55,567 bases of DNA from Saccoglossus kowalevskii (taxonomy: Eukaryota > Hemichordata > Enteropneusta > Harrimaniidae). Position numbers and translations under genes: made by a program. Below the pieces are notes generated by a model. That model was not told where the DNA came from. It made no database searches and saw only the letters and a list, made by a program, of their open reading frames with translations. Below are positions 9,001 through 12,000 of this stretch, one piece after another (the stretch's first letter is position 1; each line of letters starts with the position of its first letter). The stretch is from positions 73,645-129,211 of the forward strand of contig NW_003123406.1 of assembly GCF_000003605.2 (NCBI RefSeq). The letters are read 5' to 3'.

Positions 9001-12000
9001 TATTTTGGTAAGAATTTTTGTCCAAGTGCTTCATATTTTGGACAAACCATGGTATAGGTATTCGTCCTCTGTGACCCTGCAACCAAATGGACATAATCTT
9101 TGGTCACGTGGAATACCCAATGTTCTACCATTTTCAATTTCTAGGGGATGACAGGAAATTCTAAGTCTAGTCATAGCATATGAATAGATAGGAGTTGCCA
9201 ACGAAATAACAGCAAGATATATTTCACATATTAAATACGTTTGAAGCTTTACATTTTTATTAATTACATTTTTATATATCACCCGCAGATACGCCGTTGG
9301 CAGTGTTGGCTTACATTCACAAACATCCAAATGATATCCTACCGACAAATGAGGCTTCAAACAGGTTTGCACTATTGAATTATCAAACACTAAATTACAC
9401 TACATTACTAGAAGTTGATTTCGCTATAACATGTTATTTTAAACGAATATATTTTATTAAAGTGTGGCTTTCCCTCTATTTCTTGTTTTAAGACCTACAC
9501 AAAGAACGTGGGTGAAGTCTGTCACAGCAGTCGAGAAAGTCATTGAAGTAAACACCGCCGTGTTATCAGTGTCATTACATCCAACATATGTGCTAGAAAA
9601 TCTTGATAGTCATGATGACGTCATCCAATTGAAACTGTATAAGAACAAGGTATCATAATGGAATATATTGAACTCCTTCTATCGTGTGGTATATTTTAGT
9701 ATTGGTTCGAAATCAACTAGACACGTGTATATGCTAGTGTCTTTTTCTCGCACTTGTATCACTGTGTATATCGCTGTGATAATGGATAACTGCATGTCGT
9801 TGTGTGTGTGCATATGTGAGGTGATCGCTAACTGTGTGTCATTATGTTATGTCTTGTAGGAGGGATATGATCCACAGTGTTCTTACATTAACCTCGAAGC
9901 ACGTCATGGGTAGGTGACATTTTAAACAGAATTACCCATATAATTGAACTTATTTAGATGTATGTACAATTTACGAAAGCTTAAGTTTTATATATTTAAC
10001 CAGCTCATATTGTGGTAATAACCGCCTTCGTTCCCATACAACAGTACCATTGTTTGTCTGAGTGAACCTATTAATAATTAACTTCTGATGTCATTTTCCA
10101 TATCACAATTCGAGAACTTGCAGACCCGGACATTATTGCACATGTCTTTGTAAAAATGTTTTGTTTGGTTTGAAGGATCTGGACTACCGTTGGTTGCAGG
10201 TTGGTGGAAGAGGGAATTGATTCATTGGGTTCATTTATAAAATGCAGATGCAATCTGTTAGCTAGTTTTGCTGTGATTATGACGATTGGAAAACCCTTAT
10301 TGGTATGTTTTTATATGCTAAAATGTTCACCAACAGTGTCGACGTATAATTCAAATTGCGGTGTGTCTTTTTTTCTGATATAATTATGTTATGACTGTCG
10401 ACTATCATGTTTCAAATGCAGCCATTTCTTGAAGATTCTGTTGACATTATCACCACTATTAGCTGTGCCATAGCAGTGGTTCTGATGGTTATAACAAGTA
10501 TCATGCTAAACATCCCAAGGTAAGGTGTGCGTTGCTGCAATGACGTGATGATTTAACGTGCGCAACTACAATAACCAATACATAAGCTCTGCGTCTCTTA
10601 AACCTCGTGTCAAATTGTCTTGCAGATTAAAATCGGATCGATATTTTGTTCTTCGCCAAATGCTGTGTGCATTGTGCATACACCCTGTGTTAATGATTTT
10701 GGTTCTGAGTCTTCAATATAACCGTGATAAGGTATGGTAGGATAATCATGCTCTAATATAACAAGATAACTAAGGAATATTTGAATGGGCGGTAGTCGTC
10801 CTGTCACGCATGCGCGAGATATATGGGGTCTCATATAAACAAAGATGGCGACTTTGGCTGTTGAGCAGATCAACGGGTACAAACTATTTTTTATGTAATT
10901 GGGAGGTATCGAAAAAGTCAGCGGCGGTAATTAGTGCAAGTCGCGCCCAGGTCAAACCTCATACCTGTGATTTCTATTAGAATAGAGCATTGGATTGTGG
11001 GAAAATCAATGTCCATCAACATAAATGTCGCACATGCGCGGTGCAACGACTACCGCCTTTTAACCCTGAAAAAAAAAATTATGTATTACGTGACTGTCGT
11101 ATGAGTATTTTTAACGCCAAACAGATCAGTTGGAGAATTGGTGGCATCATCTCATGTCTTTTCGCCAAACGTCTGCTTTTGTCACTCATGAATATCAAAC
11201 AAATCAGTTGCTTTTCTACCTTACTTACCTTCAATATGTTGGGCACATACTGTGTAGGTAACAAGTAATTACGTCACTGTATTTCAGATGTATTGCAGAG
11301 TAATGTCATTTTTAATGGATTTCTGTTTACAAGTAATCTCGATGTGGATACTAAACATGAGCATACAGTTGTATACACGTGTCAAGTTACTTATTTATGG
11401 ATCACTGAAAGCAAGGTAAAATACCCAACGATTTTATTTAACCTAATTTGCATATTTGTACCACTATAACAAAACAGCATTTGGGTTGGAAATGTGATAT
11501 TTTTATTTTTTATTTTCAGACTGTATTATTTTATCTCCGGGTGGATCATTCCATTACTTATTGTATTGGTATGCCTATTTAGCGATCTTTCCGCTTATGA
11601 AACACACACCACGTAAGTAAATAATAATAATTGTTTCATCTCTACAAGTCGTGTAGTTTGCCGTATGTGTTCATCAGTACAATTCACGCATGCAGAAATG
11701 TTTAATTTGATTAAGTATATCCTGTTATGTATTTGGAGGCGTGTCTCTGTTCTCCTGTTTTTCAACCATCCCATAATGAGACTTATCTTTGTTCGTTTTT
11801 GTTCATTTCAGGTGTGTGGTAATCGGTAATATCACAGTGATCCTTGCAGTACTGATCTCATTGGTAAGTCATAGTGAGTAATCATAGGTCGTAGTAAGTT
11901 ATAGTACGTCATGGTAAGTAATAGTAGGTTATCACAGATCGTTGTAAGTCATAGTACGTCATGGTAAGTCATAGTATATAATCATAGGTCGTAGTAAGTC

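Follow-up and report, generated by a model that had tools for sequence, protein, structure and literature searches.

An adhesion GPCR gene of Saccoglossus kowalevskii and its close paralogues lack residues of GPS autoproteolysis

Locus and gene model

The window, i.e., the whole stretch of 55,567 nucleotides analysed here, represents positions 73645-129211 of contig C1594 (NW_003123406.1) in the 572 Mb S. kowalevskii genome (G000, 4830 contigs). It carries one gene on the plus strand (656-14344) with the order EGF-Sushi-HormR-GAIN-GPS-7TM, followed by a basic tail ending in TAA (Table 1). From 9493 to the stop codon, the model comprises 13 exons with AG acceptors and 12 introns with GT donors in matching phases; further upstream, weak donors follow 6816 (GTTTAG) and 9364 (GTTTGC). 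Pfam assigned 25.0 bits to the GPS (cut-off 22.5), 44.3 to 7tm_2 (20.6) and 25.5 to GAIN, just below its cut-off of 26.5, and the EGF, Sushi and EGF exons, joined as one query, matched EGF_CA with 113.5 bits in five stretches. With GPS/GAIN directly before 7tm_2, the encoded protein is an adhesion GPCR (aGPCR, class B2), and its ectodomain is long and of the adhesion type, with six EGF exons recognised by Pfam and pattern and with Sushi-like and HormR-like parts recognised by eye only. The HormR-like region aligned weakly with latrophilin-1 (4dlq, residues 30-110, E 1.5e-4, no stretch passing alone), and the cytoplasmic tail is similar, again weakly, to that of a paralogue (L035, E 0.088). The gene may start upstream of the window, where a pattern scan of the plus strand of the flank (L037; 9801 bases, of which 5449 are N) found no further EGF exon.

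Table 1 Exons of the aGPCR gene in the window.
Feature	Positions	Strand	Remarks
Five EGF/EGF-CA exons	656-760, 1096-1215, 1313-1432, 1850-1969, 2071-2190	+	AG..GT, 105 or 120 bases, same phase
Sushi/CCP-like exon (TCSTSYGLNGGSITV..ECK)	2503-2661	+	cysteine pattern by eye; no Pfam Sushi match at E 0.1
Sixth EGF-CA exon	3164-3337	+	best EGF_CA stretch (Pfam)
HormR-like exons	4678-4788, 4989-5083 (last end assumed)	+	by eye, weak; no Pfam HRM match at E 0.1
GAIN exons	5443-5610, 6709-6816 (end by eye), 6959-7079, 7977-8123, 9289-9364, 9493-9649	+	Pfam GAIN just under cut-off
GPS exon 1	9860-9909	+	first Cys and aromatic (CSYIN)
GPS exon 2	10176-10302	+	W, three Cys, L-L-A at 10255-10263, strand SFAVIM
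TM1-TM5 exons	10422-10519, 10626-10731, 11288-11415, 11520-11612, 11812-11863, 12605-12690	+	Pfam 7tm_2
TM6/TM7 exons	13190-13319 (AHILCFVPG), 13425-13466	+	ungapped line-up with paralogues by eye; HMMER to ADGRD1
Cytoplasmic tail exons	13788-14003, 14297-14344	+	stop TAA

Several repeats accompany the gene. The intron before the HormR-like exons holds a LINE-type remnant resembling reverse transcriptase, recognised by eye (YADDQTLL, LGVVVDKTLSWDHHV; 3338-4300) and without a Pfam match for 3517-3840, and behind it TAAA is repeated in 65 copies (4378-4636). The intron between two TM5 exons contains a minisatellite (11862-12408, units of approximately 50 and 170 bases) whose repeats are rich in GTAAGT words resembling splice donors, and a 45-copy array of a 25-base unit lies at 53675-54796. 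No Rfam family reached its gathering score in the window, and nine of the 29 open segments that are 100 aa or longer were scanned with Pfam, which found no family at E 0.01.

The GPS site and its close paralogues

In its splice-fixed frame, the second GPS exon translates to (G)IWTTVGCRLVEEGIDSLGSFIKCRCNLLASFAVIMTIGKPLL, in which 10243-10281 reads C-R-C-N-L-L-A-S-F-A-V-I-M, so that His(-2) is replaced by Leu and Thr/Ser(+1) by Ala (triad codons CTG TTA GCT). The GPS framework C-x11-W-x4-C..C is nevertheless present with four Cys, one from the first GPS exon (PQCSY) and three from the second, and with its Trp (IWTTVGC). In the ADGRL3 alignment, the Tyr of CSY lies 33 residues ahead of the His position, at the place of the His-stacking aromatic described for F803 of ADGRL1 (PMC13062082), and is followed by Ile where ADGRL3 has Trp (CSFW). 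Compared with TxFxxLM, the segment after the GPS, ASFAVIM, keeps Phe and Met but has lost Thr(+1); Ala also occupies +1 in 8jmt, a solved construct of ADGRL3. An earlier sequence-only reading of the window had described just this site, with four cysteines and Trp kept and a Leu-Leu-Ala triad, and the exon translation together with the Pfam GPS score above cut-off bears it out. Its further statement that no reading-frame error is involved agrees with the intact splice sites and phases and with a near-identical second copy carrying the same codons. A chance match to the GPS is ruled out by the Pfam score, the splice phase and this second copy. In a six-frame pattern scan, the window showed no further GPS-like exon in which H-x-[TS] is open. 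The two matches to C-x-C-x-H-x-[TS], at 33471 (+) and 14281 (-), are both interrupted by a stop codon, and those to H-x-[TS]-x-F, few in number (e.g., HLTSF at 54856, minus strand), are without cysteines and were rejected as GPS.

H-X-S/T is described as the chemistry of GPS cleavage, a motif that is missing in 10 out of 32 human aGPCRs, and not all aGPCRs are cut (PMC13062082). In the L-L-A of the window gene both the base and the nucleophile of this autoproteolysis are gone, and the receptor would therefore be expected to stay in one piece, as had been proposed from the sequence; on the known chemistry, it very probably does not cleave itself.

The site does not stand alone in the genome. 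Two protein searches of the same genome, the second with the GPS exon of a relative as query, yielded eight close GPS exons, the window included, which we refer to as the subfamily (genes are named here by contig and position); among the nine matches listed in the second search, the ninth (E 0.256) was an outgroup gene, C1730:604k. Their triads read LLA in the window and in an inverted copy (C1594:33k), LFA in C1594:327k and C1594:342k, RFG in C1594:490k and C4070:126k, and HFD in C2722:228k and C2722:243k. The Ser/Thr at +1 is consequently missing in all eight and the His in six of them, and the +1 loss extends to genes whose GPS exon shares 47-56% identity with that of the window. The strand residues are retained, with Phe(+3) in seven of the eight exons and both Val(+5) and Met(+7) in every one. 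A loss confined to the window gene is not supported, as the +1 residue is missing in all close GPS exons found; this emerged from a paralogue alignment of the kind suggested in the sequence-only reading. In C1594:342k (L044, G000:C1594:342450-342720) the frame of the GPS exon is apparently broken by a deletion of two bases, and part of the subfamily may hence be decaying.

Among the Pfam-found GPS exons of the same genome (36, a lower bound), 34 carry H-x-[ST], a proportion that is not to be read as a rate, since none of the eight subfamily exons appears in the Pfam listing and the 36 are biased to canonical sites. One of the 34 was parsed by script as HCS and is HLT by eye. The two exceptions are both H-x-G, namely C1730:715k (HLG) and C593 (HPG). 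The latter exon (L036, G000:C593:343679-343774) lies outside the subfamily and is a further candidate for an uncleavable site.

Descent, selection and the helix-6 position

To place the subfamily, a tree of 11 rows was calculated with the triad columns masked, comprising seven subfamily exons (the frameshifted one omitted) and four outgroup rows. The subfamily rows split from the outgroup rows with bootstrap 98 and SH-aLRT 96, on a tree in which two subfamily rows consist of the GPS exon only and the outgroup branches are long; support inside the subfamily is weak (55/10, 61/12). On this tree, the +1 state requires two changes (subfamily; C1730:715k), and so does the His state. Because +1 Ser/Thr is absent in all eight exons while two of them keep His, the pattern suggests that the nucleophile was lost before the His.

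The inverted copy lies on the same contig (C1594:30600-33800, L038), its GPS exon about 50 kb from that of the window gene and with the same triad codons. Between the two, dN/dS is 0.36 (dS 0.16, dN 0.058), a value from one copy pair with patchy identity, compared over 10 exons with 335 codons that begin with the last GAIN exon and end with TM6. Exon identities range from 0.82 to 0.99, with 0.99 in the GPS exon and 0.82 in TM6, and gene conversion between the two genes is likely. The inverted copy is for this reason not counted as an independent loss.

Another feature of the subfamily concerns helix 6, whose W6.53 is described as engaging the tethered agonist (PMC13197933). HMMER aligns this Trp of ADGRD1 to a Phe of the window gene; at the corresponding position, the 33k copy has Ser, and 490k, 336k and 367k have Arg. 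The toggle Trp is therefore absent in all five subfamily TM6 exons read, a set that leaves out the C4070 and C2722 members and includes C1594:367k, for which no GPS exon was found, and 336k, the presumed partner of the 327k GPS. Among the outgroup genes, an ungapped alignment by eye places Trp at this position in C1730:715k, C1730:604k and C3325:711k, and Ile in C140. A strict coupling of Trp loss and cleavage loss is out, since C140 (L030) combines a canonical HLT with this Ile, its Trp standing four residues earlier. In the literature consulted, in which no search was aimed at this subfamily or at this point, we have not met a joint loss of cleavage and toggle Trp in an expanded subfamily.

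Interpretation and comparison with known receptors

Taken together, we consider it probable that these genes form a lineage-specific aGPCR subfamily that has lost GPS autoproteolysis and works as a single uncut chain. The GAIN domain would fold yet be unable to cut itself, the nucleophile having probably been lost first and the His then drifting to Leu or Arg. The receptor would bind via the EGF/Sushi/HormR ectodomain, with force or adhesion relayed to the membrane as one piece, and G-protein signalling, if any, would be basal or Stachel-independent, with no freed Stachel acting on the usual Trp.

The main competing explanation accepts the uncut receptor but keeps it Stachel-dependent, with S-F-A-V-I-M still serving as an agonist via partial exposure, as proposed for the uncleavable ADGRG5 and ADGRD1. 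The strand residues conserved despite the lost cleavage residues speak for it, as does the nondissociation model on record (PMC13197933). However, +1 is Ala, Gly or Asp in all eight exons, and for Cirl of the fly the +1 change T>A alone gave no rescue, whereas H>A behaved like wild type (PMC13197933); moreover, the toggle Trp is replaced by Phe, Ser or Arg in the TM6 exons read. The conservation could also stem from the fold itself, as the SFAVIM segment corresponds to the beta-strand that closes the GAIN fold (PMC13197933) and belongs to its core. Overall, we regard this explanation as rather unlikely. From the absent toggle Trp and the failure of Cirl T>A, we lean towards a purely structural role of the conserved FAVIM, as the final strand of GAIN retained for the sake of the fold, and it is somewhat favoured that the window receptor does not use the usual Stachel mode. 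The tethered-agonist-like SFAVIM pointed out in the sequence-only reading is accordingly retained as a segment, but a working agonist is unsupported.

Pseudogenisation under way would likewise account for the missing catalytic residues and toggle Trp and for the apparent frameshift in one paralogous GPS exon. Against such decay stand the frame and splice sites, intact over all 13 exons from 9493 onwards, the dN/dS against the inverted copy, the 7tm_2 score well above cut-off and the sharing of the +1 loss by genes as divergent as 47-56% identity in this exon, and we hold it to be improbable for the subfamily. That a wrong exon or a sequencing error misled us, with the real transcript using another GPS exon, is very improbable indeed, given the six-frame scan of the window without an open alternative and the same codons in the inverted copy; nothing was found that speaks for it.

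Beyond the uncut single chain, a wider reading is put forward tentatively, as conceivable but not favoured: the whole expanded subfamily may have jointly given up self-cleavage and the Stachel-Trp switch, with the GAIN strand remaining as a structural element only and the receptors acting in Stachel-free adhesion or force sensing. Should other species show the joint loss as well, these genes would be natural controls for a tethered-agonist strand without cleavage or toggle Trp, with which its part in the structure could be told from its part as an agonist; merely one more uncleavable aGPCR would add little.

An uncleavable aGPCR is an already known kind, including in humans, where the receptors without H-X-S/T include ADGRF2, ADGRF4, ADGRA1 and ADGRC1. 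These represent a natural loss of the motif in a functional receptor family, as here; the present case is for its part a paralogue cluster in one genome in which the toggle Trp is also absent in the exons read. ADGRB1 and ADGRB3 (BAI1 and BAI3) carry TSP1 repeats, which were not found in the window gene. Both keep the GAIN fold with RLS at the site, i.e., with His replaced by Arg like in two subfamily members, and ADGRB3 was solved uncut; nevertheless, they are described as retaining the Ser nucleophile and as giving CTF-size fragments in mouse brain (PMC13062082), whereas the window gene has lost both residues. Furthermore, sponge aGPCRs without a GPS have been published (PMC4302439). For the GAIN end and the 7TM part, the best sequence matches among solved structures are the latrophilins (ADGRL3) and ADGRD1, whose natural sequences are HLT, with a helix-6 Trp in ADGRD1, whereas the window gene has L-L-A and Phe. 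The N-terminal domains of the latrophilins and ADGRD1 also differ from those of the window gene. Within the same genome, the paralogues C1730:604k, C140 and C3325:711k have similar GPS and TM exons but a canonical HLS or HLT.
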